Assembly (NCBI GenBank): GCA_964030785.1
Contig: OZ034975.1
Coordinates: 38,968,069 to 39,032,068, forward strand
Source: Siderastrea siderea
Taxonomy: Eukaryota > Cnidaria > Anthozoa > Scleractinia > Rhizangiidae
Length of the DNA: 64,000 nucleotides
Direction: 5' to 3'
Of this stretch, positions 41,311 through 63,353 are shown one piece after another. A model generated the notes under the pieces. The model worked only from the letters and a program-made list of their open reading frames with translations, was not told where the DNA came from and did no database searches. The translations under genes and the position numbers were made by a program. How positions within the stretch are numbered: position 1 is the first letter of the stretch; every line of letters starts with the position of its first letter.

Positions 41311-41316
41311 GATGTC
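41311..41316. repeat. Left target-site duplication of the Polinton
   Basis: GATGTC, identical to 63348-63353. A 6-bp duplication is the known signature of Polinton/Maverick integration. Confidence 0.9.
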
Positions 41317-41797
41317 AGTAGTAAATTGGGCTCGTTTGGGGCATATGGAGGCTTCTGATTGGTTGTTGGGTTGCCTAGTAACAGCAGTCGGAAACCGCTG
41401 ACCAGTGGGAAAAAAGGATCGCGGGCTCATGGGAACCGGAAGTCACGTGATTTAAAATGGGAAACCGCTGACCAGTGGGAAAAAGGGATCGCGGGCGCAT
41501 GGGAACCGGAAGTCACGTGATTTTGAATGGGAAACCGCTGACAAGTGTGAAAAATGGATCGTGGGCTCAAGGTGGGTTAAAACCGCTGAGAAAACGCGGG
41601 CGCAAAGTCCAAAGTCCAATTTGGGGAACGGGGGTGGTCCTTTGGAGTGAAAAGTACACAAAATGAATAAATCATGTTTTATTGATTTGTTTTACAATAA
41701 CTCCTTTGTGTTCCTATTTGATATGAGGGTTCCACATCACAATCGACGATCTTGTTGGGGTTTTCACTGGTAGCCATAGGGGTAGGTCTTGAAGGTG
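41317..41797 (+). repeat. Left terminal inverted repeat (481 bp)
   Basis: Mirrors 62816-63347 nearly base for base. It contains 2-3 tandem copies of a ~65-bp unit with GGGAAACCGCTGACCAGTGG and CCGGAAGTCACGTGATTT. Its inner end duplicates the last 11 codons of the polymerase gene in inverted orientation. Confidence 0.93.
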
Positions 41798-41850
41798 CGT
41801 CCCAAACCACGCGAAATCCAAGTGATCAAAAGTCAGCACATTGTCCGACG
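41798..41850 (+). pseudogene. Polymerase B scrap, C-terminal
   Basis: The + strand reads RPKPREIQVIKSQHIVRR, closely matching residues ~1340-1356 of the intact polymerase (KPREIQVINSRQIVRN). It lies directly after the left inverted repeat and in the orientation opposite to what a mirrored right end would give. Confidence 0.7.
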
Positions 41851-41886
41851 GAGACGACTTTGCTTCCACCGAAGACTATTTGGCAG

Positions 41887-42250
41887 TTCCTTTTGGAGGA
41901 GTTCCTATGTTCCTTTTGATAATACGAGTGTTCCTTTTTGATGAGTTCCTTTTGATAATACGAGTTCCTATTTAATAATGTTCCTTTTTGATAATATGAG
42001 TTCCTATTTAATAATGTTCCTTTTGATAATATGAGTTCCTATTTAATAATGTTCCTTTTGATAATATGAGTGTTCCTTTTGATAATATGAGTGTTCCTTT
42101 TGATAATACGAGTGCGTCACGTGTCCGTGATCAATAATGACATGGTGAAGATCCATTACCAAAATCAAAAAGAGGGCATGTTGCTTTTTGATGAGTTCCT
42201 ATTTAATAATATGAGTGTTCCTTTTGATGAGTATTCCTTTTATAGTCCAG
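41887..42250. repeat. Minisatellite of GTTCCTTTTGATAATATGA units
   Basis: A dozen or so variable copies alternating TTCCTTTTGATAATA(T/C)GAGT and TTCCTATTTAATAAT. The array is interrupted by the polymerase scrap at 42112-42180. Confidence 0.8.
42112..42180 (+). pseudogene. Polymerase B scrap, palm region
   Basis: Reads VRHVSVINNDMVKIHYQNQ then KEGM. It matches residues ~1191-1213 of the intact polymerase (VRHVSVASDQMVEVHYQKQ, KEDI), with 14 of 23 positions identical by eye. It is embedded in the minisatellite. Its order relative to the scrap at 41798 is reversed compared with the gene. Confidence 0.7.
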
Positions 42251-42325
42251 TCACTGACAGTAGAGGTCACATTCGCAACTATGATTGAACCATGGAATAT
42301 GTGAAGTTGAACATTTATTCACAGA

Positions 42326-42455
42326 TTATTTCTTCTTAATAGCATCTTGCTCAGCCTGCTCCTTGGCTGTCTTCTCTCTGATGCCAACCAGCCTGGCATT
42401 ACGCATGCTCCTGAATACACTGGTATTCTTTTCTTCATCTGATCTTGCGAGCCTT
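42326..42455 (-). pseudogene. RPL13: Captured 3' end of ribosomal protein L13 (eL13)
   Basis: The minus strand reads KARKI, then after a small indel DEEKNTSVFRSMRNARLVGI, then REKTAKEQAEQDAIKKK and a TAA stop. This is the C-terminal end of eukaryotic eL13 (NARLxGIRxKxAKExAEQD, ending in lysines). AATAAA follows ~10 bases after the stop (42310-42315), as in a short ribosomal-protein 3' UTR. It is a host fragment inside the Polinton. Whether it was retroposed or copied as a genomic last exon is open. A polymerase-type promoter upstream at 42679 points toward it. Confidence 0.75.
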
Positions 42456-42664
42456 AATTGGCAGGCAAGTGAGTGAAGGACGAATTAGTCAAAGCCGTCG
42501 AATTGGAGGAGGAGATCCAAGCCAGCAAGCAAGCAAGCAAGCATGTCAAGTAAGCATCAATGGTGGGGGATTGAGCCAACAGACCAAAGGATCAAGCAGA
42601 GCCATCTCAACCACTTGTTGGGTTTCTGGACTGGTCATCGATGAGTGTGAAAACATGAAATGGG
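42456..42664. other. Spacer upstream of the L13 fragment
   Basis: Contains a (CAAG)n run near 42525-42545. No gene is supported. Confidence 0.5.
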
Positions 42665-42830: not shown

Positions 42831-42875
42831 GCCACAGGGCGTCACTCTTAGCTTTGAGCCGGTCCTGAGCGACTT

Positions 42876-43727: not shown

Positions 43728-44420
43728 TTACAAATGAAAGTCTTCCAGTTCCATACGTAATTGATCAATGTTCTCGGGTAGACAGAAGGTGCGATTGAAC
43801 AAGGCTTGAATTTCGGCTCGGGTTTTCTCGTCCACATCCCTGGATCCCACAATAGCACTGCTTTGATGAAGGGTGGGCTTTTTAGGTCCCCAAGGAACAA
43901 ATTGACTGCCAGTGACCAGGGTGGCGGCATTCTCATTGACTTGGTAGTAATGGTCCGAGCGGTACCATGATTGACTGGGTATGTCAAACAGGTAGACGGG
44001 TTTGCCTTGATCCATAGCCAATTGCACCGTCCAACCAGTGCCTCCTTTCACGCGTTTATGATCCGGTTCCAAGATGCCAAAGGCATAGATGGTATGGGCT
44101 TTTTTGGCCAATTGATAATTGCGTTGCAGCAATTGCAAGGTGTAAAAATGACTGGGCATCTTTTTGCCTAGTTTCTCCGCTGCCTGGTGAAGATGGGGGT
44201 TGGCCAGCATCAGGACTTCCACCGTAGAAGGGGTGACGAAAGTGGCTCGAGGATGGTTCGGGGGGACCAGGACTTCTAGTTGCATCCCAAAGTGTTTGGC
44301 CTGTTCTTCCACGAGGGCATCCGTACCTTTGGCTCCCCCTGTGTAGACCACATGGCCATGACCCACTTGCAGTTCCAAGGCACCGAGATCTTGTTCTCCG
44401 ATCATGATGTCTGGGGGCAT
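43728..44420 (-). CDS. SLOG-fold protein with apparent circular permutation
   Basis: 230 aa from ATG 44420 (a TTG 30 bases earlier is rejected). Rossmann-like SLOG/DprA-YspA features are present: VVYTGGAKGTDALVEEQA (residues ~24-40), PPNHPR, RN at 100-101, the phosphate-loop-like KGGTGWTVQLA (125-135) and a KPVYLFD strand. The IVGSRD motif (180-185), which normally opens the fold, is at the C-terminus after a ~50-residue insertion. SLOG proteins bind or process nucleotides or related ligands, and in bacteria often partner two-transmembrane SLATT effectors. A SLATT-like protein is encoded at 53704. Only minus-strand gene in the left half of the element. Confidence 0.7.
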   Translation of the reverse strand: MPPDIMIGEQDLGALELQVGHGHVVYTGGAKGTDALVEEQAKHFGMQLEVLVPPNHPRATFVTPSTVEVLMLANPHLHQAAEKLGKKMPSHFYTLQLLQRNYQLAKKAHTIYAFGILEPDHKRVKGGTGWTVQLAMDQGKPVYLFDIPSQSWYRSDHYYQVNENAATLVTGSQFVPWGPKKPTLHQSSAIVGSRDVDEKTRAEIQALFNRTFCLPENIDQLRMELEDFHL

Positions 44421-44454
44421 GGCTTTTGAGAATGAAGATCTAGTGACCAAGGGA

Positions 44455-44600: not shown

Positions 44601-44636
44601 ATGGTCGGTAGGGGGTGACATCAACCTTTGAGTACG

Positions 44637-45506
44637 ATGTCTGTCGATCGGAAGAGAAAATCAACCCATCCCCCAGAGGGGAAGAAGAAGAAGAAGGCCA
44701 TTCAACATATGACGCCCGTGGACTGTGATCCTGTGGTGTGCGACGTGGTGGAAGACACCCGAGCTGCTGTGGAAGATATGATGAAAGAATTGAATGACAT
44801 GGTGGAGCAATCACCCCCATCACCTCAATTCACCTTGACGACCGTGTATGATCCTCCCAGTTCAGTGGACACTATGGTATGTCCTTACCATGAGGTGCGT
44901 TTGGAGGCCCGAGAATCTCAAAAGGGATGGAAGTATGTGAAATGTCCCATGCAACCGTGTTTGCTGTTTTGTGGTCAAGATCAAGTTCTGGAGTATATGA
45001 AAGCCGTGTATAGTCAACCTCATGTAGAAGTGTTGGACATGTGGGGTGGTTTACAATGCTTTTGCCGTGAACCCGCCACGCTACAACAGAGTCATTCGAC
45101 TCAGAACCCCGATCGGTTGTTTCTGACTTGTTCCAAGAAAACGTGTGGCTTCTTCCGATGGGCCGATCAACCCTTGGGTTCCAAGTACTGGACGTGGTTT
45201 CATGACAACCCTCCCAAAAAAGCCGATCAACAAGCTGAAGCACCCACCCGTGATGCTCAAGGATATCCCAAGAGGGGCTATGACATCCCTGGCCCGCCCC
45301 CTCGAGTCCAGAGCAAAGAGGACGTGGAACGAGAACGACCCCTGACAGACTATGAGAAACAATTGTTACGAGAAATTCAAGAGCTCAAGAACCGTCAAGA
45401 AATGATGGTAGCCCCAGCTCCACCACCCCCCAAGTACAGTGACAGTGTGGAGAACTGGCAGAAAGGTCTAGAGACCGTCAGCTATGGCCGTCTAGGTCTC
45501 TTTTAA
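44637..45506 (+). CDS. Double GRF-type zinc finger protein
   Basis: 289 aa from ATG 44637. The N-terminus is lysine-rich (EGKKKKK). Two zinc-binding modules follow: a diverged one at ~82-112 (CPYHEVRL ... KCPMQPC) and a clear GRF finger at 131-165 (CFCREPA ... NPDRLFLTCSKKTCGFFRW). GRF fingers bind single-stranded nucleic acid in proteins such as APE2, TOP3A and NEIL3. A proline-rich segment and a coiled-coil-like helix (LTDYEKQLLREIQELKNRQE) lie near the C-terminus. A role in replication or packaging of single-stranded intermediates is inference. It is first in the + strand block, and its stop is one base from the next ATG. Confidence 0.7.
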   Translation: MSVDRKRKSTHPPEGKKKKKAIQHMTPVDCDPVVCDVVEDTRAAVEDMMKELNDMVEQSPPSPQFTLTTVYDPPSSVDTMVCPYHEVRLEARESQKGWKYVKCPMQPCLLFCGQDQVLEYMKAVYSQPHVEVLDMWGGLQCFCREPATLQQSHSTQNPDRLFLTCSKKTCGFFRWADQPLGSKYWTWFHDNPPKKADQQAEAPTRDAQGYPKRGYDIPGPPPRVQSKEDVERERPLTDYEKQLLREIQELKNRQEMMVAPAPPPPKYSDSVENWQKGLETVSYGRLGLF

Positions 45507-45507
45507 A

Positions 45508-45906
45508 ATGAGAGAACGAATAAAATTTTTTATCAATGTCACCATGGAGTCTGTGTGTGATGCATGGGAGTCTGTCTTGTCCCTGGGGCAATGGCAATGT
45601 CATCAAACCCTTTGTCAAGTCTTATATGATCATCAACCCGGCACCCAAATCCCCATACCCCCTTGTCCCGAGGACACGCATCCTCTTCACCTCTTTGAAG
45701 AAACTCATGTCGACTGCAACCTATATCGATGGGTGGTGTTTGTCTTATGGTTAAAAGCTCACCCAGAGGCATGGCGATGGTATCGAATCATTCAAAAGGC
45801 GCATCCCCACACGGTCCCTACCATATCGACCTTATGGGATGAATGCCAAAAAGTATGGCCCCTCGAAAGAGAACCCAACGCTGGAGTTCGTCGTCCTCAT
45901 GGTTAA
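45508..45906 (+). CDS. Hypothetical Polinton protein upstream of integrase
   Basis: 132 aa; ATG one base after the previous stop (an alternative in-frame ATG lies at 45544). Not recognised. It is rich in tryptophan, histidine and cysteine with predicted helices (YRWVVFVLWLKAHPEAWRWY). Its last 64 bases overlap the integrase start in another frame. Conserved spacing and the absence of stops make it credible as a real small gene. AATAAA at 45520 is probably incidental. Confidence 0.5.
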   Translation: MRERIKFFINVTMESVCDAWESVLSLGQWQCHQTLCQVLYDHQPGTQIPIPPCPEDTHPLHLFEETHVDCNLYRWVVFVLWLKAHPEAWRWYRIIQKAHPHTVPTISTLWDECQKVWPLEREPNAGVRRPHG

Positions 45907-47021
45907 AGAAAACCAAACGCCCTGTGTCGTCGTCAACGAAGAAGAAGGCCAATGTCTCGCAACAATGGTTGAAGCGTTACCATGATCCTGGTGCCCCGGG
46001 GAGTTTAGGTGGGGTGCAACGATTTGCGAAAGCCCAGGGTCTCCCTTTGAAAAAAGCCCAACAGGTGTTGGAACAGGATGTGGGTTACACCTTGCATAAA
46101 CCCCGACGTCGTCGTTTTGCTACCTTACCCGTGATCGTAGGGGGGTTGGATGATCAATGGGCCGCGGATTTAGTGGAAGTGCAACGTTTGGCCAAACATA
46201 ATCGGGGTATACGCTACTTGTTGACGGTCGTGGATGTCTTGTCCAAGTACGCGTGGGTCGAACCGTTGAAAACCAAAACCGGGGTGGCCCTCGTGAAAGC
46301 CTTTGAGAAGATTGTGAGACAAGGAGGACGTCACCCGAATCGATTGCAAACGGATCGAGGGAAAGAATTTTATAATCGGACCTTTCAACGATGGGTCGAC
46401 GAGCAAGACATTCAACATTTTTCGACCGAAGGGGATGCCAAAGCCAGTGTGGTGGAACGATTTAACCGCACCTTGAAAGAACGGTTGTACCGTTATTTGA
46501 CCGCGGCCAACACGTTGAAATTTGACAATGTCTTACCCGAGTTGGTGCAGGGGTATAATGCCACCCGTCATCGAAGTATTGGTATGCCCCCCGAAAACGT
46601 GACGTGGGACAACGAAGAAGCCGTGTGGAACCGATTGTATGCCAAACGATTGAAAGGCTACAAAAAACCCCAATTGAAGGTGGGGGATCATGTCCGTCTC
46701 AATACGATTCATCGTACCTTTGAAAAAGGGTATTTACCCGGTTGGACCGAAGAAGTGTTTGTGGTGCATCGTGTGATCCCTGGCCCTGTCCCCACGTATA
46801 AGATTCGCGAATGGGATGAGACCCCCGTCCAAGGTACGTTTTATGAAGAGGATTTACAAAAAGTCCATGTGTCCGAGGTGTTTCGGATCGAGAAGGTACT
46901 TAAGCGACAAAAAGGTCGTTGGTTGGTCAAGTGGAAAGGGTGGCCCGACAAGTACAATAGTTGGATTGCTCGTGGAGACGTGGCATCCCTTCGACCCCGC
47001 AAACGACGACGACGCCGCTAA
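45843..47021 (+). CDS. Retrovirus-like integrase with chromodomain
   Basis: 392 aa. The N-terminus is basic, followed by a Polinton-type zinc-free HTH region and the linker GYTLHKPRRRRF. The rve catalytic core spans ~101-265 with D109 (WAADLVE), D171 (LQTDRGKEF) and E205 (ASVVERFNRT), spacing consistent with DDE integrases. A C-terminal SH3-like segment is followed by a chromodomain at ~346-385 (VFRIEKVLKR ... WLVKWKGWPDKYNSW) and an arginine tail. The enzyme inserts the element and makes the 6-bp duplication; the chromodomain probably steers it to marked nucleosomes. All catalytic residues are present. MAPRKR at 45855 is an alternative start. Confidence 0.95.
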   Translation: MPKSMAPRKRTQRWSSSSSWLKKTKRPVSSSTKKKANVSQQWLKRYHDPGAPGSLGGVQRFAKAQGLPLKKAQQVLEQDVGYTLHKPRRRRFATLPVIVGGLDDQWAADLVEVQRLAKHNRGIRYLLTVVDVLSKYAWVEPLKTKTGVALVKAFEKIVRQGGRHPNRLQTDRGKEFYNRTFQRWVDEQDIQHFSTEGDAKASVVERFNRTLKERLYRYLTAANTLKFDNVLPELVQGYNATRHRSIGMPPENVTWDNEEAVWNRLYAKRLKGYKKPQLKVGDHVRLNTIHRTFEKGYLPGWTEEVFVVHRVIPGPVPTYKIREWDETPVQGTFYEEDLQKVHVSEVFRIEKVLKRQKGRWLVKWKGWPDKYNSWIARGDVASLRPRKRRRRR

Positions 47022-47027: not shown

Positions 47028-48068
47028 ATGACATTGGTGCCCAACTCTTCGTTTTACGTGACGTTGATGAGTCATGCGAGTACCAAAGAGTTTCCTGGGA
47101 ACAAGAGTCATCATTTCAGAAACCGATTGCCTAAACCCATCCGATTTGTGGGACGAGGATGGATGGTGGGTATGGTGAGTTTATCCTTACCCACCATTCC
47201 CGTGATAGCGGAAGAAGGAGGCGTGGGTGATTCCCATCCTCTGTTGTACGTACGATGGCACGAACGGGTGTATACCAAAGACGATTTTGGGAACGATCAC
47301 TGGTACCATGAACGTCGCGAACTCTTTGTGTACGGACGAGATATGAGAAAGGAATTGGCCTCGTTGACGGGATCGCACTTTTTTCATCAACTGGTGTACC
47401 GTTACGTGCAAGCCCGTGCCAAACAAACCAAACCCCTCAACAAATGGGCCGAGGATAATGGCGTTAAATTATACCCGACGTTTGAATGGACCTCCGAAGG
47501 GGATTTGGTGTTGAATACCGCCAATGTGGATTACACGCGACAAGTAGCACGCGTGTTATGGGGCAGAACCTTGGCGCTGAGAATGGGATGGATTGAACAA
47601 GTGTCGACGGGCGTGTATCGATTGGGGCCCAATCTCTTGCAAGAATTTCATACGGACTCCATTCCCACCCCGTCCGATGTCCTGGATGGCAGCAACAAAC
47701 CCGCCTTTTGGAAAGTGGATGGGGATTATCTGAACTTGAGTATGACGTGTAATTGGCGGTTTGTGAATTTGAACAAGACCTTTCGTCCCTCGTTGGAATT
47801 TCCCTCCACGCGTCCTTTGCACGTGTATTGTGATGTAGGCACCAGCAGTATGGTAGGGGGCCGTATCACCGATCTCTTACGAGAAATCAAGTACCAGCCT
47901 CAAAATACCACCCACTTTGAACCTCGACATATTCAATATATCCCAGTACGCAACGAAGTGGTGGAAATTGTCGAAACCCAGATGGCCGAAACTAATGGGG
48001 ATCTGGTGAAATTTGGTGAAGGCCATGCCCTCCTGACCCTCCACTTTAAAAGGGAAGTGGTGGTGTGA
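47028..48068 (+). CDS. Minor-capsid-like (penton-like) protein, paralogue 1
   Basis: 346 aa, ATG 6 bases after the integrase stop. It opens SSFYVTLMSHASTKEFPGNK, then LPKPIRFVGRGWMVGMVSLS, and ends RPLHVYCDVG ... FEPRHIQYIPVRNEVVEI ... KFGEGHALLTLHF. These blocks recur in the next gene and, from memory, in proteins encoded next to capsid genes in other invertebrate Polintons, where a single-jelly-roll penton/minor capsid role has been proposed. The beta-rich pattern fits. No catalytic motif is seen. Confidence 0.55.
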   Translation: MTLVPNSSFYVTLMSHASTKEFPGNKSHHFRNRLPKPIRFVGRGWMVGMVSLSLPTIPVIAEEGGVGDSHPLLYVRWHERVYTKDDFGNDHWYHERRELFVYGRDMRKELASLTGSHFFHQLVYRYVQARAKQTKPLNKWAEDNGVKLYPTFEWTSEGDLVLNTANVDYTRQVARVLWGRTLALRMGWIEQVSTGVYRLGPNLLQEFHTDSIPTPSDVLDGSNKPAFWKVDGDYLNLSMTCNWRFVNLNKTFRPSLEFPSTRPLHVYCDVGTSSMVGGRITDLLREIKYQPQNTTHFEPRHIQYIPVRNEVVEIVETQMAETNGDLVKFGEGHALLTLHFKREVVV

Positions 48069-48082
48069 AGAAGAAAGACAAC

Positions 48083-49126
48083 ATGTCGTTTTACGTGACG
48101 TTACCCAGTCATGCCAACCGACGTGAATTTCCCAACAACCAAGACAATTCCTTCAAGATTCGTTTACCTCAACCGTTACAGCTCACAGGGGGTGGATGGC
48201 AAGTGGGGTTGAGCGCCATTTCCTTACCGGATACCCGCGTCAATTTGTACGAGTTGGTGAAGAAAGATGGGTACATCCTAGCGACGTCGTGGGAGATCAC
48301 TTATCCCGCCCCGGGTAAAACCGATGGCACCATGGCCGCGCGCATAGGCACGGCGCAAACCCTCATCCAAGACGTTCAAGATTTGGATTGGGTGGTGGAT
48401 GGCGTGAGTTTCATGAAAGCCACGATTGCCCATTTGGAACAACGACGCCAGGAAACGGCCATTCAAGGAGGCCGGTTTACCAACGATCAAGGCAAACACA
48501 CCTACGTCAAGTTCAAGTGGGAAGGCGACGATCTGCTCATCGACAACACGAATGTCTGCCATTGTGGTAACAAAACACCAGTCCTTACCATCTACACCAA
48601 GTTAGCGCTCAAGATGGGATGGTTACGTAAAATTAGCAGTGGATTGGTGTTGGGCCCGAACTTACAACAAGACTTCATGGGGGATCAAGTCCCCAACATC
48701 ACCAACAACAGCGATTGGCAGGATGTCACCGACGGTCAGGGGAACGCGGTCTTTTGGACGGTGCGTGCGATTTTACCGGATTATTTACAATTGAGTATGA
48801 GTTGTGGGTGGCGTTTCACCAACTTGAATACGGCGTTTCGGGCGGTGGTGGGGGAACCCACCCGATCGTTGCACGTGTACTCGGACGTGGCAGGCAGTAT
48901 GATGGTAGGCAATCGCGTGACTGATTTGTTACGTGAAATCCAGTACAAGCGAGAAGCACGTGGCACCCTGTATTTTGAACCGTTGCACATTCATTACATG
49001 TCTCTTCGTAACGAGGTGGTGGAAATGATTCACGTTCAAGTGGCTGAAACGATTGGTGCCGGAGGAGACTTGGTCAAGTTTGGTGAAGGTCATACCATTG
49101 TCACGTTACACTTCAAAAAGACATAA
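48083..49126 (+). CDS. Minor-capsid-like (penton-like) protein, paralogue 2
   Basis: 347 aa from ATG 48083 (a GTG at 48065 is rejected). Same architecture as the previous gene: MSFYVTLPSHANRREFPNNQ, LPQPLQLTGGGWQVGLSAIS, RSLHVYSDVAGSMMVGNRVT, FEPLHIHYMSLRNEVVEM, KFGEGHTIVTLHFK. Tandem duplication with clear divergence suggests two related capsid components, for example different vertex or spike proteins. Fourteen bases separate it from the upstream stop. Confidence 0.55.
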   Translation: MSFYVTLPSHANRREFPNNQDNSFKIRLPQPLQLTGGGWQVGLSAISLPDTRVNLYELVKKDGYILATSWEITYPAPGKTDGTMAARIGTAQTLIQDVQDLDWVVDGVSFMKATIAHLEQRRQETAIQGGRFTNDQGKHTYVKFKWEGDDLLIDNTNVCHCGNKTPVLTIYTKLALKMGWLRKISSGLVLGPNLQQDFMGDQVPNITNNSDWQDVTDGQGNAVFWTVRAILPDYLQLSMSCGWRFTNLNTAFRAVVGEPTRSLHVYSDVAGSMMVGNRVTDLLREIQYKREARGTLYFEPLHIHYMSLRNEVVEMIHVQVAETIGAGGDLVKFGEGHTIVTLHFKKT

Positions 49127-49161: not shown

Positions 49162-49353
49162 ATGCCCAAGACAAGAGTGCGTCGAATGAGACGAAGAAGA
49201 AGGCAACGAGGGGGTCTCTTGCCCCTGGCGGCCCTCATTCCAGCCTTGATCGCTGGAGGAAAAGCTGTGGCGTTGGGTGCTGCAAGTGGTGCCGCGAGTT
49301 ACGGGGCTAAAAAAGGGTTGGAAGCCGCTTTTCGGAAAAAACGACGACGATGA
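49162..49353 (+). CDS. Small basic core-like protein (pX/mu-like) 1
   Basis: 63 aa. An arginine-rich N-terminus (RVRRMRRRRRQRGG) is followed by a small-residue hydrophobic segment (LLPLAALIPALIAGGKAVAL) and a basic tail (FRKKRRR). The layout recalls adenovirus core peptide precursors processed after Gly-Gly. QRGG|L fits the XGG|X cleavage style of adenain-like proteases, and the element encodes one at 51388. Likely a DNA-condensing or membrane-active virion peptide. Related to the 54-aa protein at 54901. Confidence 0.6.
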   Translation: MPKTRVRRMRRRRRQRGGLLPLAALIPALIAGGKAVALGAASGAASYGAKKGLEAAFRKKRRR

Positions 49354-49356
49354 CGG

Positions 49357-49364
49357 TATAAAAA
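49357..49364 (+). promoter_or_regulatory. TATA box
   Basis: TATAAAAA, 57 bp before the ATG at 49421, located just after the stop of the upstream gene. Confidence 0.5.
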
Positions 49365-49420
49365 GGGGGTCACGTGAAGCACAGACAAAACGTTTATCCC
49401 TGGTGAAGAAGAAAGGCACC

Positions 49421-49747
49421 ATGCGTGGGGGAAGTTTGACACGATTTCGAACCGACGAGTGGTATGATCAACAAGGCAAAGGAGTGATGACGGATCTGAT
49501 GCGTGGGGGGTTGCAAGGTCTTATAAGGACGCGAAATCCTTTAAAATTGCCTAGTAATATCAAGAGAGGCTTGGAAACGGGTTTGACACGAGGTATCAAA
49601 CGCAAAGCCGAAGACGTCCTTAAAAAGGAAATCACCAAACAAGCCAAGAAAGCGTTGAGTCATAAGAACGTGAAAGACGCCGTGCGTGTAGCCACTGCCT
49701 TATTTCCCAAACAAACCAAACGTGCACGTGATATTTTGGGAGTCTAA
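49421..49747 (+). CDS. Small basic virion-like protein with two MRGG sites
   Basis: 108 aa from ATG 49421; the frame opens earlier at a GTG with no ATG, and the TATA box at 49357 argues for the later start. It contains MRGGSL at the very start and LMRGG|LQG at ~26-30, both fitting (M/I/L)XGG|X, the adenain consensus. The remainder is lysine-rich helix ending RARDILGV. Probably a core or cement protein processed during maturation. Its stop TAA shares one base with the next ATG (TAATG). Confidence 0.55.
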   Translation: MRGGSLTRFRTDEWYDQQGKGVMTDLMRGGLQGLIRTRNPLKLPSNIKRGLETGLTRGIKRKAEDVLKKEITKQAKKALSHKNVKDAVRVATALFPKQTKRARDILGV

Positions 49748-49982: not shown

Positions 49983-51383
49983 ATGCCTGACGTGAGTACG
50001 CAAACCGCCCCGGCTCACGAGCGTTCCGAAGGGACCGTCAACCCTGCCTTACGGATTTTCAAGGTGCCACCGACCGACATTAGCATCAATGCCTATCGCA
50101 TGGTCACCATCCAACCCACCACCACGGGTATCAATCCCATGGAATTCATCATACCGGGATTGGACGATTTTGTGGATTTGGGACGCAGTTACTTTACCAT
50201 GGAATTGAGTTTGAAAAAGGCGAATGGCGCGAACTTGGTGGCCGCGGAGAAATTGTGGCCCGTCAATAATTTGGCCCATTCCATCATCAAACAAATTGAC
50301 TTGCAGTCGAATGGCACGTTGATCAGTCCACAATCCGACACGTATCATTACAAAGCTTACCTGGAAACCTTGCTGAATTATGACCGAGAAGATGGCAAGA
50401 CCGTGTTAGGACCCCAAGGATGGTTCAATCAAGTGGATTTCCCACCCGAATGGACTGCCACCAACACAGACAAAGCAGGAAACCATCAACATTGGCAAGA
50501 TCTGCCTCCTAATCATCAAGCGGCCTTCAATACCTCTGCGACCGAAGTGGAGAAGTATGCTGCAGGTGTCACCCACAGTCTAGTGTTTACCCCGCACTTG
50601 GAAGTGTTTCATACCGGCAAACTGTTGGTGCCAGGCATCGAAATCAAGATGAAATTTCATTTCAATGGCCCCAACTTGTTTTTGAATGGAGTGGCTCTAG
50701 CTGGCCGATTGATGGAAGGGGATGTGAAACTACGGTTTCATCTCTGTCAACTGCGTTTGAATGACGCCATCTACCAGAGTATATCTGAAAAAAGACACAA
50801 TGAAGGCCAAGTGGCGGCTTACCCGACCGTCCGCAGTGAAATCCGGACCTTCAGCATGCAAAACAACCTGGTCCGCTTTGATATCCCGAACCTGTTTCAA
50901 AACAGAATACCTGACCGATTGATTGTGGGGTTACTGGACAGCCGTGCCTTCAATGGAGATGTGACCCGAGATCCATTCTGTTTCCAGAAATTTGGTCTGA
51001 GTTCCATTAAACAGATTGTCAGAGGAGAAGAGTACCCTTATGAAACCCTCCAGTTAGTGCACAACAATGGCACCCGAGATAATCTAGGCTACTTCCGTTT
51101 TCTGCAAGCCAGTGGTGCTTGGTGTAAAAAGAAAGGCAACATGGTAGAACTGCTGGATTGGGGCCAAGCTAAAAATTGTACCTTGTTCATGTTTGACAAT
51201 GTGGCCAATGGATGTGCTGACAGTCAAAACCTCAACCCCAAGCAAACAGGCGATTTACAATTGGTGTTGGAATTTGGAGCTGCCCCCGGTGTCAATATAA
51301 CCGTACTCGTGTATGGAGAATTTGAGAATTTGCTGGAGATTGACAGGAACGGAGCCGTGTTGTATAACATTTACCAGCACTGA
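49983..51383 (+). CDS. Major capsid protein, double jelly-roll
   Basis: 466 aa. The N-terminal third carries the conserved Polinton capsid run: FKVPPTDISINAYRMVTI, GINPMEFIIPGLDDFVDLG, then NNLAHSIIKQIDLQSNGTL and YHYKAYLETLLNYDRED. This matches the family often annotated in invertebrate genomes as F54H12.2-like, recognised as the Polinton hexon-type double jelly-roll protein. Trimers of such proteins form icosahedral capsid faces. The length is typical and the frame is intact. Two bases separate it from the upstream stop and 4 from the protease ATG. Confidence 0.85.
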   Translation: MPDVSTQTAPAHERSEGTVNPALRIFKVPPTDISINAYRMVTIQPTTTGINPMEFIIPGLDDFVDLGRSYFTMELSLKKANGANLVAAEKLWPVNNLAHSIIKQIDLQSNGTLISPQSDTYHYKAYLETLLNYDREDGKTVLGPQGWFNQVDFPPEWTATNTDKAGNHQHWQDLPPNHQAAFNTSATEVEKYAAGVTHSLVFTPHLEVFHTGKLLVPGIEIKMKFHFNGPNLFLNGVALAGRLMEGDVKLRFHLCQLRLNDAIYQSISEKRHNEGQVAAYPTVRSEIRTFSMQNNLVRFDIPNLFQNRIPDRLIVGLLDSRAFNGDVTRDPFCFQKFGLSSIKQIVRGEEYPYETLQLVHNNGTRDNLGYFRFLQASGAWCKKKGNMVELLDWGQAKNCTLFMFDNVANGCADSQNLNPKQTGDLQLVLEFGAAPGVNITVLVYGEFENLLEIDRNGAVLYNIYQH

Positions 51384-51387
51384 AGAA

Positions 51388-51927
51388 ATGGAACATGTGG
51401 CCTTGAATAATGTGCAGTTGGATTATTTAGCCCGAGACGACCCCCAATTGAACCCGGTCTTTTACGGGACGGTGGCCTGTGATCGTTTACCCAAGAGTCC
51501 TGTCAAGACCCAACCTCAAGGGTACATTGTGAATACGGACCCACACGATCAACCGGGACAACATTGGTTAGCGGTGTGGACCGATGGAAAGGTGTGTGAA
51601 GTCCTGGACAGTTATGCTTTGCCCATGGACACGTACGTGCAAGCGACCCCGTTACGAGATTGGATTGTCCAACATTGGAAGTATGTGGTGACCAATGGCA
51701 AGTCCCTCCAAGCCATTACAAGCAAGAGTTGTGGTGATTACGCCTTGTTGTACTTGAAAGCCAAAGCCCGTGGACGGACCTTGCAAGCGTTTTTAAATGA
51801 GTTTTCGGATCATGATTATGTTAGTAATGACCATCAAGCCGGTCAACGCCTTCAACAATTGATTGTAGGCCAAGAAGCCAGATGGTATCAACTCTGTTGT
51901 CATCCGTATCATCAATGTAATCATTAA
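51388..51927 (+). CDS. Adenain-like maturation cysteine protease
   Basis: 179 aa from ATG 51388 (the frame extends upstream into the capsid gene without an ATG). Peptidase C5-type motifs: H59 in GQHWLAVW, acidic residue E71/D74 in EVLDSY, and C115 in SCGDYALLY, with Q109-T111 upstream of the cysteine. In adenoviruses this enzyme cleaves core and minor capsid precursors after Gly-Gly or Gly-X. Several element proteins carry matching RGG sites. The stop overlaps AATAAA (51927-51932), probably the polyadenylation signal of the capsid-protease transcript. Confidence 0.88.
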   Translation: MEHVALNNVQLDYLARDDPQLNPVFYGTVACDRLPKSPVKTQPQGYIVNTDPHDQPGQHWLAVWTDGKVCEVLDSYALPMDTYVQATPLRDWIVQHWKYVVTNGKSLQAITSKSCGDYALLYLKAKARGRTLQAFLNEFSDHDYVSNDHQAGQRLQQLIVGQEARWYQLCCHPYHQCNH

Positions 51928-52087: not shown

Positions 52088-52741
52088 ATGCAAACGGGGA
52101 AACCGTTTCGTTTTCATACGCCTTCCTCTATCTTGGTGGTGGGTCCTTCGGGATGTGGGAAAACCGCGTTTACGGAAAAACTCTTGGTAGACAACCCCGA
52201 GTTGTTTGAAAGTCCACCGACCCAATTGCATTATTGTTATGGGGCCTGGCAAGATCGATTTCGAGGCATGCAAGATCAAGGGGTGGTGTTTCACGAAGGG
52301 ATTCCCGATCATGAGGCCTTAGTGCAATGGTTTCCTGAAGGACAGGGGGTCCTGGTCTTGGATGATTTAATGGATGAAGGGAGTCACGATAAACGCGTGT
52401 TGGATTTATTCACCAAACATTCGCATCATCAAGGGGTGACGGTGCTCTACTTGTGCCAAGACATGTTTCCCGTGGGTCGCTATGCGAAAAGTATATCCCG
52501 CAATGCCCATTACATCGTGGCGTTCAAGAACCCCCGAGATCAATTAGGGGTACGCAATGTCATGCTGCAATCGTTTCCGACCACTTGGAAAGACACGTTG
52601 GAGACGTTTCATCAAGCCACCACACGACCGTATGGCTATTTGGTCTTGGATTTACATCCGGCCTCGTCCGATCAACAACGGGTGTTGAGTCACCTGTTAA
52701 AAGACGAAGGATGGACTCGCACCTATCAAAAACGACTATAA
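52088..52741 (+). CDS. FtsK/HerA-type genome-packaging ATPase
   Basis: 217 aa. Walker A GPSGCGKT at 19-26, Walker B VLVLDDLMDE at ~88-97, and a downstream sensor-like TVLYLCQDMFP and RNAHYIVAFKNPRDQ typical of the A32/Polinton packaging ATPase clade. It pumps DNA into preformed capsids. Length is normal and the motifs are complete. A TATAAAGG at the gene end (52738-52745) probably serves the next gene. Confidence 0.92.
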   Translation: MQTGKPFRFHTPSSILVVGPSGCGKTAFTEKLLVDNPELFESPPTQLHYCYGAWQDRFRGMQDQGVVFHEGIPDHEALVQWFPEGQGVLVLDDLMDEGSHDKRVLDLFTKHSHHQGVTVLYLCQDMFPVGRYAKSISRNAHYIVAFKNPRDQLGVRNVMLQSFPTTWKDTLETFHQATTRPYGYLVLDLHPASSDQQRVLSHLLKDEGWTRTYQKRL

Positions 52742-52781
52742 AGGGAGCCCCTTGGAACAGGTCAAAAGAGAAAAGCAAACC

Positions 52782-53699
52782 ATGGCCGATGATGATGATG
52801 ACCGTCAACCTCCGCAATCGTACGATACCGTGTCCCCGGCGGGGGTGGGGGCGGCCAGCAGCAATCAAATGTCCCCAAGGGCCTGGCAAGATTTATTTTG
52901 GTCGGGAGACCAAGGCCTTCTCGACGCCGCCCAGGAGGAAATGGAAGCCGAGCCCCTCTATCGGTTTATGCAATCCATCCCCCCTGTCGGTGTAGATGGT
53001 GTGCCCCCTGTGCAGGCCTCTTCCCCAGCAGGGGTAGGAAGTCCAGGAAATCAACCATTCCAAAGCCCCCAGACCGGCCCGTTGTCTTCTGGTGCTCGAA
53101 CCCCTGCGACTCCTCCTAGCGTACCCTTGGCAGCGGGTGCTCGAACACCAACGGGTGCTCGAACAGCAGCGGGTGCTGGGGGTAATGGGCGTGGTGGTGG
53201 ACGTAGTGGACGTGGTGGTGGTGGTGGTGCTGGACGTGGACGTGGTGGTGGTGGTGGTGGTGGTGGACGTGGTGCTGGGGGTGGTGGTGGTGGTGGTGGT
53301 GCTGGTGGAGGTGGTGGTGGTGCTGGTGGTGCTGGTGGTGCTGGTGGTGGTGGTGGTGGTGGTGGTGGTGGTGGTGGTGGTGGTGGTGGGGGTCGTCGTG
53401 GACGACGACCGTTTCGAATACGAGGACGACGACGAAATACCCCCACTTCCCCTTTGACACCTGCCTCCAATCCAGCTACCCCTCGAGGATCTTGGACATC
53501 TGGGAGTTCTGGTAGACAGCCTCGTACCTTGCGTCAAGCGGATTTACAACGACGTTTACGGATGCTGTTACAAGATCAAGAACAGTTGGCCCAAGGACGT
53601 GAAATTGCTAATGTCACCATGACCAATAGCATTGTCACCAGTTATAAACAAGGAGGAGCACCGAGCGTACAAACCTCGTCGTCCCGTGTTTCGCCGTAA
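52782..53699 (+). CDS. Glycine/RGG-rich hypothetical protein
   Basis: 305 aa from ATG 52782, 44 bp after TATAAAGG. Acidic start (MADDDDD), a central proline/serine/threonine region with three GARTP-type repeats, then a very long glycine tract with interspersed RGR (~135-220), an RRGRRPFRIRGRRR basic patch, and a helical C-terminus (RQADLQRRLRMLLQDQEQL). RGG-rich regions bind nucleic acids and promote condensates. The order acid-RGG-helix is reminiscent only in a loose way of viral scaffold or packaging proteins. Not recognised as a family. Confidence 0.6.
   Translation: MADDDDDRQPPQSYDTVSPAGVGAASSNQMSPRAWQDLFWSGDQGLLDAAQEEMEAEPLYRFMQSIPPVGVDGVPPVQASSPAGVGSPGNQPFQSPQTGPLSSGARTPATPPSVPLAAGARTPTGARTAAGAGGNGRGGGRSGRGGGGGAGRGRGGGGGGGGRGAGGGGGGGGAGGGGGGAGGAGGAGGGGGGGGGGGGGGGGGRRGRRPFRIRGRRRNTPTSPLTPASNPATPRGSWTSGSSGRQPRTLRQADLQRRLRMLLQDQEQLAQGREIANVTMTNSIVTSYKQGGAPSVQTSSSRVSP
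53160..53395 (+). repeat. GGT/GGN trinucleotide expansion within a CDS
   Basis: Nearly uninterrupted GGT codons with occasional GCT, CGT and GGG. Long frames on the other five registers (polyproline, polythreonine, polyhistidine, polyvaline) are artefacts of this tract. Confidence 0.9.
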
Positions 53700-53703: not shown

Positions 53704-54384
53704 ATGAAAACCGTCGTGTCGTTATTGAATGGATCAAAACAACATGGTCTTCCCTTCCCCCCAGAATTATTACAACGCATGGATTCCTTGTATGCCTTTT
53801 ATCATCAACAATGGTGGTGTTATCGAAAAATGTTGAATCATTACAGGTGTATCAATGCCTTGTTCAATGGCATGGCCTTACTCCTGATGGCTGCCGGCAT
53901 GATTGCGGGTCCGCTTTTGGAAAACAGTACGTTGGTAGCGTGTTTGGCGGCGGTGGGGACGGTGGTCAAAGGATGGAATGATTTTAAACAATACCGATTT
54001 AAAGTGACCATGAGTCGATTTGCGTTTACCACCTATGCCAAAGCCTTGACCGAATTGAAAACCCATGTGCGGGGTATTCCCTTGGAGGATCTGGAACGAT
54101 TTTTAATCAAGATGCAAACCTTGGATGATACCATTGTGGATTTCACCCCTCCATTACCCAAACGATGTGTCCAAGATTACCATGGTCATTTTGTGTACCA
54201 ACCCTTGGAAGGCCTATGCTATGTAGACGGGTGTCCTCGTCCCTTGAGACCCAAAGAGTATTGGATCCATAAAAAGCCGCTCCCTCCTAGTCCTACACTC
54301 TTAGAACCATGGCCCCCCGAAGAAGAAGACGGACAAAAAGAAGAACCCAGCAAGGAGAAGGCATACCTTGGTTCGTCGACGTGA
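53704..54384 (+). CDS. Two-transmembrane SLATT-like protein
   Basis: 226 aa from ATG 53704, four bases after the previous stop. Two closely spaced hydrophobic helices at ~51-70 (NALFNGMALLLMAAGMIAG) and ~76-92 (TLVACLAAVGTVV) form a hairpin. They are followed by GWNDFKQYRFKVTMSRFAFT and a helical TYAKALTELKTHVRG region. A 2TM hairpin plus a downstream helix with a W/Y/F pattern is the architecture of SLATT effectors, which partner SLOG or nucleotide-signalling proteins in prokaryotes. In a virus it could equally be a membrane or envelope protein. The C-terminus is proline/glutamate-rich. It overlaps the next gene by 76 bases. Confidence 0.5.
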   Translation: MKTVVSLLNGSKQHGLPFPPELLQRMDSLYAFYHQQWWCYRKMLNHYRCINALFNGMALLLMAAGMIAGPLLENSTLVACLAAVGTVVKGWNDFKQYRFKVTMSRFAFTTYAKALTELKTHVRGIPLEDLERFLIKMQTLDDTIVDFTPPLPKRCVQDYHGHFVYQPLEGLCYVDGCPRPLRPKEYWIHKKPLPPSPTLLEPWPPEEEDGQKEEPSKEKAYLGSST

Positions 54385-54584
54385 AAAAGGGGTATGAAGT
54401 CACAAGTGATTTGGTCAAAGCCTTGAAAAAACCACAAATGAGTGCTGCCCAAGGGAGAAAGATGGTATCGGGGTACAAACAACAATATCAAGCGTATAAA
54501 AGACGAGGGGGTACCAAAGGGTACAACAGTTGGTTGATCGACAAAGGCTATGCCAAAAAACCTAACAAGTGTTGTATCCAATGA
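54309..54584 (+). CDS. Small basic protein
   Basis: 91 aa; ATG inside the end of the previous gene. Arginine-rich start (APRRRRRTKRRTQQGEG), then a helical lysine/tyrosine-rich body (KKGYEVTSDLVKALKK ... GYKQQYQAYKRRGG). It ends in CCIQ, a possible prenylation-like CaaX end (C-C-I-Q), which may be chance. Its stop and the next start overlap as ATGA. Unrecognised; likely a virion component by composition and position. Confidence 0.5.
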   Translation: MAPRRRRRTKRRTQQGEGIPWFVDVKKGYEVTSDLVKALKKPQMSAAQGRKMVSGYKQQYQAYKRRGGTKGYNSWLIDKGYAKKPNKCCIQ

Positions 54585-54907
54585 AACGTCTTCGACGTCA
54601 ACGCAGAAAAAGGAAACAACGAGGAGGGGCTTTAATGCGTCGCAAACCCCGTTTGGTGGATAAAATTGCCCATGGCATGAGTATGTTTCTATCAGGTCCC
54701 GCCCCTGGGTTTGGACTGGCTTTAGGCAAATTAGGGGGTCAAGCCTTGAAAGGCATTACCGATAATGTACAACATTACCGACGACAACGAGGTGGGGGTT
54801 GGTGGTCCGATTTCAAACGCAATACTCGTCAAGGTTATAAAGAGACGCAAGACCTCATCAAACAAGACAAAGCCCTTCAACGTCTATTGACGGGTCGACC
54901 ATGGTGA
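54581..54907 (+). CDS. Basic virion-like protein with two QRGG sites
   Basis: 108 aa from ATG 54581, the ATG of an ATGA overlap. Starts MKRLRRQRRKRKQRGG|ALM, then a glycine-rich amphipathic segment (MFLSGPAPGFGLALGKLGGQ), then a second YRRQRGG|GWWSDF site and a helical tail. Two candidate cleavage sites would release a ~60-residue glycine-rich peptide with membrane-active character, by analogy with adenovirus core or lytic peptides. Function inferred only. Confidence 0.5.
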   Translation: MKRLRRQRRKRKQRGGALMRRKPRLVDKIAHGMSMFLSGPAPGFGLALGKLGGQALKGITDNVQHYRRQRGGGWWSDFKRNTRQGYKETQDLIKQDKALQRLLTGRPW

Positions 54908-56244: not shown

Positions 56245-56601
56245 ATGCCCACCAAGAGGAGAAGGGGTATTAAACGGAAACGCCCCCAACGAGGAGGGGC
56301 TTTGGATGTCCAAAAATGGATTGCGAAAACGGGGAAGGAATTTCATTGGCCCGGTTATCAGTACATGGGCCCTGGCACCCATTTGGCTAAACGTCTGAAA
56401 CGGGGGGATCCCGGGATCAATCGCTTGGACCAGATTGCTAAGCAACACGACATTGATTACAGCCGTGCTAAGAATTTGCAAGATAAATGGAAAGCCGATA
56501 CCAAGATGATCCAAGCCATTGATCGATTACCCGGCAAGAAAAACAAGACCGAACGGGTGGTCAAGAAAATTATGCAAGCCAAGAAACGTTTAAAATTGTA
56601 A
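56245..56601 (+). CDS. Parvovirus-like phospholipase A2 protein
   Basis: 118 aa. A basic start with PQRGG|ALD precedes a compact PLA2 domain: calcium-loop YQYMGPGTHLAKRLKRGDPG (38-57, Y-x-G-P-G core) and the catalytic His-Asp HDIDYSRA (H68, D69, Y72). This is the short PLA2 type found in parvovirus capsid VP1 N-termini, where it breaches endosomal membranes. The candidate cleavage site would free the enzyme from its arginine-rich leader. It ends the rightward virion block; AATAAA follows at 56625. Confidence 0.8.
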   Translation: MPTKRRRGIKRKRPQRGGALDVQKWIAKTGKEFHWPGYQYMGPGTHLAKRLKRGDPGINRLDQIAKQHDIDYSRAKNLQDKWKADTKMIQAIDRLPGKKNKTERVVKKIMQAKKRLKL

Positions 56602-61600: not shown

Positions 61601-62849
61601 CTACCCCAAAGGACATCCCACCATCTATCATCAACCGGGTCACACGGACATACACCAGTACTTTGGGCTCATCCAATGCAAAGTCCTGCCTCCCCGTGAA
61701 TTGTACCATCCCGTGCTGCCTTACCGTCATGACAACAAACTGCTCTTTCCACTCTGTGCCCGTTGTGTGGAAGAAGAAATGGACAAACCTCTTTTGGACA
61801 GATCTTATCATTGCCCTCACACCGACGAACAACGTGCCCTCACCAGTACCTGGTGCACCCCAGAGTTGTATAAAGCCGTGGAGCTCGGGTACCAAGTCCA
61901 ATACATCTACGAAGCTTGGCATTTTGAAGAGACCTGTGAGGGCCTCTTCGCCGATTATGTCAACACCTGGTTGAAAATCAAACAAGAAGCTAGTGGGTGG
62001 CCTAAGGATGCCACGACAGAAGAAGAAAAGCAACGTTACATCGAACAATACTTCCTGCATGAAGGCATCCAGTTAGAATACAACAACATCAAGAAGAACC
62101 CGGGCCTGCGTACCCTAGCTAAGCTCATGCTCAACTCCATGTGGGGTAAGTTTGGACAACGCCTCAACAAGACCCAAATTCAAGCCTTCGATGACCCTCA
62201 TGCCTTCCACCAGTTTTTGGATAGCGATGCGTTAGACGTACGTCACGTGTCCGTCGCCTCCGACCAAATGGTGGAGGTACACTACCAGAAACAAAAAGAG
62301 GACATCCGCGTCTCACCCAACCTCAACATTTTTGTGGCCTGCTTCACTACCTGCCACGCCCGCCTTAAATTGTATGACGCCCTCCAAGCCTTAGGGGAAA
62401 GAGTCCTCTACTTTGACACCGACTCTGTCATCTACCTGGAGGAAACACCCACTCAATTCAAACCTGTATTGGGTTCCTATCTTGGGGACTTCGCCTCCGA
62501 ATTAGATGATAAAGAATACATTCAAGAATTTGTCAGTGGAGGACCCAAGAACTATGGGTATACTACGAATAAAGGAAAAGTGGAATGCAAGGTCAGAGGC
62601 TTCCGACTCAACAGCGAAGGACACACCCAGCTCAATTATGACGTCATGCGTCAGAATGTCAAGGACGAAATCCAGAAACCCCTTCCAAAACCACGGGAAA
62701 TCCAGGTAATCAACTCCCGCCAAATTGTTCGCAATCCAAAAAACTACCAACTGTACACCCAACCAAGCAGTAAGTTCTATCAGTTAGTCTGCAACAAAAG
62801 AGTCATTGATCACAACACCTTCAAGACCTACCCCTATGGCTACCAGTGA
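58668..62849 (+). CDS. Protein-primed DNA polymerase B
   Basis: 1393 aa. An acidic N-terminal region (~1-90) and a DNA-terminal-protein-like segment lead to a cysteine-rich zinc array (~355-480). The 3'-5' exonuclease follows: ExoI FFDIEAM (D533, E535), ExoII AHNFQGYD (589-596) and ExoIII YCSSDVRLL (718-726). An inserted nuclease-like block VDGYCPDTHTVYEFQGCFTH (843-862) then HGCP-type residues recall Vsr-like insertions of Polinton polymerases. Pol A DVTSLYPW (965-972), Pol B KLMLNSMWGKFG (1152-1163) and Pol C YFDTDSVIY (1248-1256) are complete. It copies the linear genome from a protein primer. The last 11 codons lie inside the right inverted repeat; AATAAA is at 62986. Confidence 0.96.
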   Translation: MSSQEDDVAGPSGLAHHEVLAMLGLDISDSDDDTNSCVGPLICTENMADSDDDICEEALNQWEQSGGGLDPSEHVTFDFELEPFVNRKSDRMGVQERHFKTQLRQRGNLLPGQNITQALQDGLRRAVDQVLTTTPDLHDQDRLYFTIASDRLHNNFQGWGLRAGEWRRDTERVEALFQRLAQALNSNEQFEMDDSFQVSITQVHHAPQGTGRPRRGKPGHPTMTMLTANKKSVIHIQNDDELCCARALVVAKARVDQHPKYDSIRKGRPLQRTLALDLQNEAKVPLGPCSYDALTQFSQAPSLTGYQIILVDAQRSFHITTFGPLSDKQLILLHNKDHYDVITKLPGFFGSSYVCADCWKPYNTEGMHRCTKTKLCGACRQKDCPDFQYAYPRHLKATQRCDSCHRDFFGPACFEAHSSKTHAGKPVTGLQTSVCSQRHRCRDCYQQNVGLSRIQRHLCWHVDCPSCHQYVHADKHRCFIQRAPKPQDQKKKRKRTRQKGPGAKRGAAAAAEPHASSEDEDEEDLPPLHVFFDIEAMQPHGKHIANLVVAETEDNDEPKPFPGSTCIRDFLEWLDTLTLHDTRQVNVIAHNFQGYDGYFIIQEYYGENRIVQQLRNGCKLLEIKHDRIRFIDSMSFFQMPLSAFPKTFGLTELCKGYFPHKFNQPHDYYQNYVGILPSRDYYMPESMTLEGRQAFETWHQQQRDQGVVFHFQQELLAYCSSDVRLLKQGCLTFKRMFEDLTGFNPFDHVTIASACNRDLRMNRMIPNSIASEPAGHNGWRTNNINQSLPALHWLTWCDHQLRQRALQDLNPNDLLASANPKPQYIQHVRNQGEYKIPGTNIYVDGYCPDTHTVYEFQGCFTHGCPTCYPHRYEKHPRNYDRTMHDLYDVTQNKVQKLTERGYNVIQMWGCQWDHLRDTHPEIDSFVRELNFIQPLEPRDAFCGGRTNAIKLYHHITPGQKIHYIDVTSLYPWVNKKSTYPKGHPTIYHQPGHTDIHQYFGLIQCKVLPPRELYHPVLPYRHDNKLLFPLCARCVEEEMDKPLLDRSYHCPHTDEQRALTSTWCTPELYKAVELGYQVQYIYEAWHFEETCEGLFADYVNTWLKIKQEASGWPKDATTEEEKQRYIEQYFLHEGIQLEYNNIKKNPGLRTLAKLMLNSMWGKFGQRLNKTQIQAFDDPHAFHQFLDSDALDVRHVSVASDQMVEVHYQKQKEDIRVSPNLNIFVACFTTCHARLKLYDALQALGERVLYFDTDSVIYLEETPTQFKPVLGSYLGDFASELDDKEYIQEFVSGGPKNYGYTTNKGKVECKVRGFRLNSEGHTQLNYDVMRQNVKDEIQKPLPKPREIQVINSRQIVRNPKNYQLYTQPSSKFYQLVCNKRVIDHNTFKTYPYGYQ

Positions 62850-63347
62850 AAACCCCAACAAGATCGTCGATTGTGATGTGGAACCCTCATATCAAATAGG
62901 AACACAAAGGAGTTATTGTAAAACAAAGCAATCAAAATGTGATTTAGGAACACAAAGGAAAACCACAGTTATTGTAAAACAAAGCAATAAAAATGTGATT
63001 TATTCATTTTGTCTTGTTTTCAAGGACCACCCCCGTTCCCACAATTGGACTTTGGACTTTGAGCCCGCGTTTTCTCAGCGGTTTTAACCCACCTTGAGCC
63101 CACGATCCATTTTTCACACTTGTCAGCGGTTTCCCATTCAAAATCACGTGACTTCCGGTTCCCATGCGCCCGCGATCCCTTTTTCCCACTGGTCAGCGGT
63201 TTCCCATTTTAAATCACGTGACTTCCGGTTCCCATGAGCCCGCGATCCTTTTTTCCCACTGGTCAGCGGTTTCCGACTGCTGTTACTAGGCAACCCAACA
63301 ACCAATCAGAAGCCTCCATATGCCCCAAACGAGCCCAATTTACTACT
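62816..63347 (-). repeat. Right terminal inverted repeat (532 bp)
   Basis: Inverted copy of 41317-41797, about 51 bp longer because GTTATTGTAAAACAAAGCAA with AGGAACACAAAGGA flanks is duplicated near 62900-62990. The outermost ~300 bp are virtually identical between ends, including the triplicated CCGGAAGT-CACGTGA units. Confidence 0.93.
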
Positions 63348-63353
63348 GATGTC
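63348..63353. repeat. Right target-site duplication of the Polinton
   Basis: GATGTC, identical to 41311-41316. Confidence 0.9.

Follow-up and report, generated by a model that had tools for sequence, protein, structure and literature searches.

What is the 22-Kbp stretch bounded by inverted repeats in contig OZ034975.1 of the coral Siderastrea siderea, and what might the genes that it carries beyond a Polinton core do for it? A preliminary description of the surrounding 64,000-nucleotide window (assembly GCA_964030785.1, positions 38,968,069 to 39,032,068; all positions below are those of the window) had called it a complete 22-kb Polinton with matched target-site duplications (TSDs). We reach the same answer with high confidence, namely that this is a complete and recently inserted coral Polinton (Maverick), and we add to its inventory a SLOG gene and a SLATT-like gene, this confidence applying to the element and its genes and not to the roles of the two proteins.

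Boundaries, inverted repeats and age of the element

The element proper spans 41317-63347, i.e. 22,031 bp; the span given earlier, 41311..63353, was right except that it took in both copies of the TSD, GATGTC, which are identical on the two sides. The element begins with AGTAGTAA and ends in the reverse complement of AGTAGTAA, which gives AGTAGT…ACTACT ends, the AGT...ACT terminal inverted repeats of Polintons/Mavericks. Inside lie a retroviral-type integrase (PF00665) and a type B DNA polymerase of the protein-primed kind (PF03175; the priming is predicted from sequence), and it is the combination of exact TSDs, AGT-type ends and core genes that bears out the original assignment. Such an element would have been inserted recently by its own integrase, leaving the 6-bp TSD.

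When the left and right inverted repeats are aligned, 468 positions agree, 7 are mismatched and 63 columns are gaps (470 of 477 positions are identical in a separate alignment that includes two TSD bases). Their agreement, formerly described as almost base for base, is that close over the outer ~305 nt, where the first 300 nt hold a single mismatch (position 286), but not further in, where we found one large gap and clustered mismatches (the remaining six mismatches being at 306, 307, 338, 339, 341 and 369). Since two other copies of the family, C and E, show similar mismatches with a shift of a few bases (an adjacent pair at 307-308 or 302-303, then 333, 334 and 336), we take the inner asymmetry to be inherited from a parent element and not to serve as a clock. 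Taking one difference per 300 nt and assuming 1 to 5e-9 substitutions per site per year, we would date the insertion to roughly 0.3 to 1.7 million years ago, with a wide error. Note that gene conversion could keep the repeats alike and make this age look too young. The outer 300 nt are without mismatch in six of the eight full-length copies considered below and carry one mismatch in each of the two others, in line with the recent insertion that had been proposed.

A family of open copies and its variable capsid candidate

We searched the whole genome assembly (830.9 Mb in 402 contigs; C1-C14 have 42-83 Mb each and the others ~18 Mb together). The inverted repeats returned at least 54 matches (40 of 2321 first-look candidates were scored), and eight full-length copies, the window copy and seven more read at their ends, were compared. 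All eight are flanked by a perfect 6-bp TSD, as expected of Polintons, and every TSD is different. With the window proteins as tblastn queries, the SLOG, SLATT, ATPase, protease, capsid and polymerase genes have no stop or break over the aligned length in any of the eight; in five copies (C-G) the SLATT alignments extend as far as residue 212-218 out of 226, those of the protease reach 178 of 179 residues in four, and in copy D the capsid gene aligned as two overlapping pieces and the polymerase to residue 1349, the end of the sequence taken. Polymerase alignments among copies contain 2-34 gap columns, all in frame. Over the genome, all 91 scored capsid loci (the best scorers of 2858 first-look candidates) are free of stops at 97-100% identity, 89 of them spanning all 466 residues and two starting at residue 6, and so are 149 of the 150 scored SLATT loci (the best scorers of 2723) at 94-100% identity. 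As both lists hold best scorers only, decayed copies are under-counted, and little about such copies can be read from the lists. Together, the two lists define at least 205 distinct loci (15-kb linkage), and for at least 35 of the 91 capsid loci one of the listed SLATT loci follows on the same strand, 2.9-3.7 kb downstream. The copy number had escaped the preliminary description, as had the SLOG and SLATT genes.

Two arrangements of these loci were seen in passing. Two full capsid genes lie 2.8 kb apart on the same strand (C6:36165764 and C6:36168577), from a tandem duplication or nested copies, and two pairs of inverted-repeat matches with equal scores and lengths lie 0.6 Mb apart (C1:28837955 and C1:29444106), perhaps in a segmental duplication carrying the element.

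The ratio of non-synonymous to synonymous divergence (dN/dS, mean dN over mean dS for the 28 pairs of the eight copies, Nei-Gojobori, own script) is 0.060 for SLOG, 0.215 for SLATT, 0.043 for the ATPase, 0.089 for the protease, 0.286 for the capsid and 0.311 for the polymerase; the pairs are non-independent, so that these values are descriptive and not a test. At the sequence level, the SLOG and SLATT genes thus look constrained between copies. Mean dS between copies is 0.07-0.12, while the outer repeats within copies differ at 2 of 2400 nt; this difference suggests that divergence of the copies, under constraint, preceded their insertion. The pattern agrees with a lineage whose function is maintained through replication and transfer, a case made for fish Mavericks in PMC8097293.

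Variation in the capsid candidate is concentrated in one place: among the first 436 residues of the eight copies 53 are variable, 27 of them within residues 140-190 (51 residues), and a second, smaller group comprises six residues at 80-89. Nucleotide identity of the block to the window copy falls to 69-72% in copies B, C, E and F, compared with 90-100% elsewhere, and is still 96% in G and H (copy D, a shorter piece, is outside this comparison). Sub-blocks are common to differing combinations of copies (C+F, B+E), as if they had been exchanged by recombination. In the adenovirus hexon, variable blocks lie in surface loops, and by this analogy the hypervariable block is as expected of a loop exposed on a particle.

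These observations bear on whether the family might be a transposon confined to the genome, with no virion stage, its capsid genes being kept by chance or for a role outside a virion. The very many copies in a single genome would suit such a transposon, and it counts against our reading that the element is known here from DNA sequence alone and particles from genes alone. Yet the low dN/dS of capsid, protease and ATPase over the eight copies, the hypervariable block of the capsid and a divergence that seems to precede insertion count against it, and we consider it improbable. What we infer instead is a lineage that would use a type B polymerase of its own for replication and in all likelihood pass through virions, and a family that has recently been spreading and may still be. 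The preliminary suggestion of a replication- and virion-competent lineage thereby gains indirect support from the six stop-free genes, their low dN/dS, the open best-scoring capsid loci and the hypervariable block.

The SLOG and SLATT-like proteins

Besides its core genes, the element keeps one gene for a SLOG protein and another for a membrane protein resembling SLATT; genes of this kind are better known from bacteria, in immunity based on nucleotide signals. For the SLOG protein, the profile phrog_768 matches 31 of 32 sequences at E<=0.01, and Pfam at E<=0.5 finds DprA in 25, YAcAr in 24 and cpYpsA in 19 of the 32. The fold is of the SLOG superfamily type, with DNPH1 and nucleoside deoxyribosyltransferases among the fold-search matches ranked below 3imk, and the best PHROG is named DprA-like recombination mediator. 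Four relatives in IMG/VR are 24-33% identical; the one contig of the four that was read carries genes for a phage-type DNA polymerase, a clamp loader and GroEL. The weight of this assignment is lessened by the window protein itself, all of whose Pfam matches (DprA, YAcAr, cpYpsA) stay under cut-off, for which NCBIfam returned no SLOG family and Foldseek no match below 1e-3 in the PDB.

That the second protein, encoded at 53704-54384, is a SLATT is probable, from sequence profiles and a predicted model, and not proved. SLATT_1 matches 20 of 30 of its homologues at E<=0.01 (best 1.7e-5), and PF18181 is precomputed on two of the 120 homologues listed. The model (predicted local distance difference test score, pLDDT, 74) has long helices at 19-71 and 74-93, and among its top 20 matches in BFVD nine are proteins of giant viruses that bear the name SLATT or 'SMODS and SLOG-associating' (probability 0.92-1.00, E 5e-3 or worse), the other matches being unnamed or uncharacterized. 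These three lines of evidence argue against the protein resembling SLATT only as a helical membrane protein, i.e. a Polinton protein of other origin, which we regard as rather unlikely. Several results do point in that direction: the window protein scores below cut-off with PF18181 (SLATT_1; E 1.4e-4, 22.4 bits, cut-off 26.3) and with NF033634 (E 1e-4, 22.3 bits, cut-off 41), Exosortase_EpsH matches 11 of the 30 homologues, and the VIA matches are generic helical bundles. It has one strongly hydrophobic stretch only, where two transmembrane helices are expected of SLATT_1. BFVD returned nothing at E<=0.001 (2.7e-3 at best), the PDB nothing in a sequence search and nothing below 1e-3 with Foldseek, and PADLOC no match.

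Do the two genes belong together? Both are present in the same element in eight of eight copies, SLOG being, like TIR or SMODS, a gene or domain partner expected of SLATT_1. Outside the family, if contigs of equal size in bases are taken to be identical, the homologue lists of SLOG and SLATT (showing 120 of 232 and 120 of 178) have at least 18 contigs in common out of 115 and 116 distinct ones, the shortest being 12,341, 54,714 and 94,904 bases. SLOG and capsid lists share at least 11, including those of 12,074 and 14,468 bases, while another of the 11 (4,516 bases) comes from different sources and is perhaps a chance match; SLATT and capsid lists share at least nine. Some sources of the shared contigs may be one species, and since identities go down to about 50-55%, these contigs are not all of the family of the window element. 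Because the lists share contigs, the SLOG gene accompanies capsid genes and SLATT in other sequenced material. A joint SLOG-SLATT system is possible; the distance of 9 kb and the opposite strands, unlike a bacterial operon, weigh against a simple operon.

Proposals in the literature suggest what the proteins might do. In the survey of PMC9503650, viral SLOGs are proposed to bind or cut ADP-ribose signals, thereby countering them, and SLATT is proposed to be an ADP-ribose-regulated membrane effector. SLATT is common in cryptophyte Polinton-like viruses, where it is thought to serve endosomal escape as a pore where lipases are lacking (PMC12220804), and the coral Stylophora pistillata has more than 40 cGLR and 7 STING genes (PMC9980059). 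From these proposals, we favour counter-defence for SLOG and a membrane pore for SLATT. By analogy, the SLOG protein might bind or cleave a molecule with which the coral cell signals alarm, either of ADP-ribose type or a cyclic nucleotide, a role that we advance tentatively and at somewhat less than an even chance. For SLATT we put at about evens that it would form or gate a pore in a membrane, whether at entry or late in infection.

A competing account, to which we give similarly tentative credence, makes SLOG an enzyme (an N-glycosidase or a DprA-like mediator) that acts in nucleotide metabolism or in the handling of DNA and aids replication, and SLATT an unrelated viroporin or entry pore, with no signalling and no counter-defence. 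It accommodates the distance and opposite strands of the genes, the name of the best PHROG, the DNPH1 and deoxyribosyltransferase folds, and the endosomal escape envisaged in cryptophytes; it is at odds with the contigs common to the SLOG and SLATT lists and with the link made in PMC12220804 between SLATT and the absence of lipases, as SLATT and a phospholipase A2-like domain coexist here. The most elaborate version of the counter-defence that we favour would have the lineage carry a nucleotide-signal module of the bacterial-conflict type (SLOG sensor and SLATT effector) directed against the cGLR/STING/TIR-type immunity of the coral or against rival viruses, and spread as virions with an immune-selected variable capsid loop; taken as a whole, we think it unlikely.

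Gene content, surroundings and known relatives

The features of the element are given in the table. Pfam matches above cut-off are confined to the integrase, the GRF zinc ribbon, the polymerase and the phospholipase A2-like domain. The five core frames reported as intact are indeed all open, but for capsid, protease and ATPase the identity comes without a family model above cut-off. The protease matches PF00770 at E 0.0024 (18.0 bits, cut-off 21.3) and its position in the element fits; the ATPase matches PF04665 at E 0.0012 (18.8 bits, cut-off 22.8) and AAA_16 at E 1.1e-4, also under cut-off. The capsid candidate, which as a Polinton major capsid protein would be of the double jelly-roll kind, has 462 homologues, and the 120 listed include two at 58% from the stony coral Oculina patagonica; PF16903 (Capsid_N) matches 8 of 19 homologues weakly (best E 0.065), and a search of PDB sequences with the candidate gave no match. 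The integrase probably ends in a chromodomain (PF00385, E 2.6e-5, 24.5 bits, cut-off 25.1), and the final 34 nt of the polymerase gene lie inside the right inverted repeat. Upstream of the capsid candidate are two paralogues, 41% identical over 352 columns, which we presume to be pentons from their position, the single jelly-roll pentons of Polintons being expected there. We take the MRGG sites of the small basic protein that follows them for an adenain-like cleavage motif, and the phospholipase A2-like protein presumably resembles parvovirus VP1.

Table. Positions of the features of the Polinton in the window (ORF, open reading frame)
Feature	Position	Strand	Remark
Left TSD, GATGTC	41311..41316		exact 6-bp match to right copy
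Left terminal inverted repeat	41317..41797	+	481 nt; contains 2.5 copies of a 70-nt tandem unit
ORF, 182 aa	42876..43424	+	no Pfam or NCBIfam family
SLOG-superfamily (DprA/YpsA-like) protein	43728..44450	-	likely start is an inner Met (MPPD..)
GRF zinc ribbon protein	44628..45506	+	PF06839, E 6.1e-6, slightly over cut-off
ORF, 132 aa	45508..45906	+	no Pfam or NCBIfam family
rve integrase	45843..47021	+	PF00665, E 2.2e-13, above cut-off
Penton-like minor capsid candidate, paralogue 1	47028..48068	+	
Penton-like minor capsid candidate, paralogue 2	48065..49126	+	
Small basic protein	49277..49747	+	two MRGG sites
Major capsid protein candidate, 466 aa	49983..51383	+	
Hypervariable block of capsid gene	50448..50552	+	aa 156-190
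Adenain-type protease (candidate)	51388..51927	+	ORF 51313-51927, likely start MEHVAL
Probable packaging ATPase, A32 type	52088..52741	+	
Gly-rich protein	52752..53699	+	
SLATT_1-like membrane protein, 226 aa	53704..54384	+	
Small basic protein with RGG motifs	54569..54907	+	no Pfam family
ORF, 105 aa	55069..55386	+	no Pfam family
ORF, 220 aa	55580..56242	+	no Pfam or NCBIfam family
Phospholipase A2-like domain protein	56245..56601	+	PF08398, E 2.3e-11, above cut-off
Repeat-rich protein, 444 aa	56866..58200	-	no Pfam or NCBIfam family
ORF, 136 aa	58019..58429	-	no NCBIfam family
DNA polymerase B (organellar/viral polymerase family), 1393 aa	58668..62849	+	PF03175, E 4.3e-47
Right terminal inverted repeat	62816..63347	-	532 nt
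Right TSD, GATGTC	63348..63353		exact 6-bp match to left copy

To the left of the element, a 51-nt inverted repeat (40852-41236, 90% complementary, 283 nt spacing) ends 74 nt before the TSD and is perhaps a small foldback element, and 3 kb away a 311-aa frame (37330-38265) has DDE_Tnp_4 above cut-off and a weak HTH_Tnp_4, as in a Harbinger-like transposase. Further left are a 223-aa frame with HTH_40 at E 7.3e-8 (34935-35606, minus strand) and a 787-aa open frame (29876-32239, minus strand), perhaps transposon-derived, with no Pfam family and weak matches to C2H2 zinc fingers in PDB sequences. Tandem repeats occur in the window at 4422-4793 (146 bases) and 19740-20016 (138 bases). Elsewhere in the assembly, C402 is the coral mitochondrial contig (19,387 bp); ARAGORN run on its halves found just two tRNAs, tRNA-Met and one whose anticodon is tca (Trp, code 4), and under this code there are open frames that by eye read as COX1, ND5, ND1, CYTB and ND2, COX1 and ND5 looking split.

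With animal Polintons/Mavericks (PMC8097293, PMC4028283) the element shares AGT-type ends, the 6-bp TSD, polymerase, integrase, candidates for ATPase, protease and capsid, and purifying selection, and its size and inverted repeats are within the ranges of intact vertebrate Polintons (12.7-24.6 kb, with terminal inverted repeats of 46-1447 bp); it adds SLOG, SLATT, two penton-like paralogues and the phospholipase A2-like domain to what these accounts describe. The 91 open capsid loci, all among the best scorers, compare with a maximum of 38 intact elements per vertebrate genome in PMC8097293, counted by stricter and different criteria. Adintoviruses (PMC11071296) likewise have animal hosts, PolB, integrase, hexon and penton, and duplicate pentons occur in a few of them, whereas SLOG, SLATT and DprA are mentioned nowhere in the main text of that paper. 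Like the element, the cryptophyte Polinton-like viruses are small and integrated, encode a capsid and have a SLATT gene; they differ in their protist hosts, in that SLATT_4 is the family named, in two transcripts, and in that membranolytic lipase genes are said to be absent (PMC12220804). Among viruses, the survey of PMC9503650 found SLOG to be confined to tailed phages and giant viruses; those proteins are stand-alone viral SLOGs like the coral one, which sits instead in an animal Polinton. Searches of one open-licence library found no Polinton with SLOG or DprA, and an animal Polinton carrying a SLOG gene and a probable SLATT is new as far as these searches show.

The kind of Polinton is ordinary, its copy number unusual and its SLOG and probable SLATT cargo, within the literature searched, new. 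That Polintons are viruses is a long-standing suspicion, and we know of no observation of their virions. The genome of this coral, in which roughly two hundred loci or more are nearly identical and almost all of those scored are open, offers a good opportunity to look for them. If SLOG and SLATT act here as in bacteria, the same nucleotide-signal parts would be used by an animal virus, which would link phage-type conflict systems with coral innate immunity and provide a defined pair of proteins to test.

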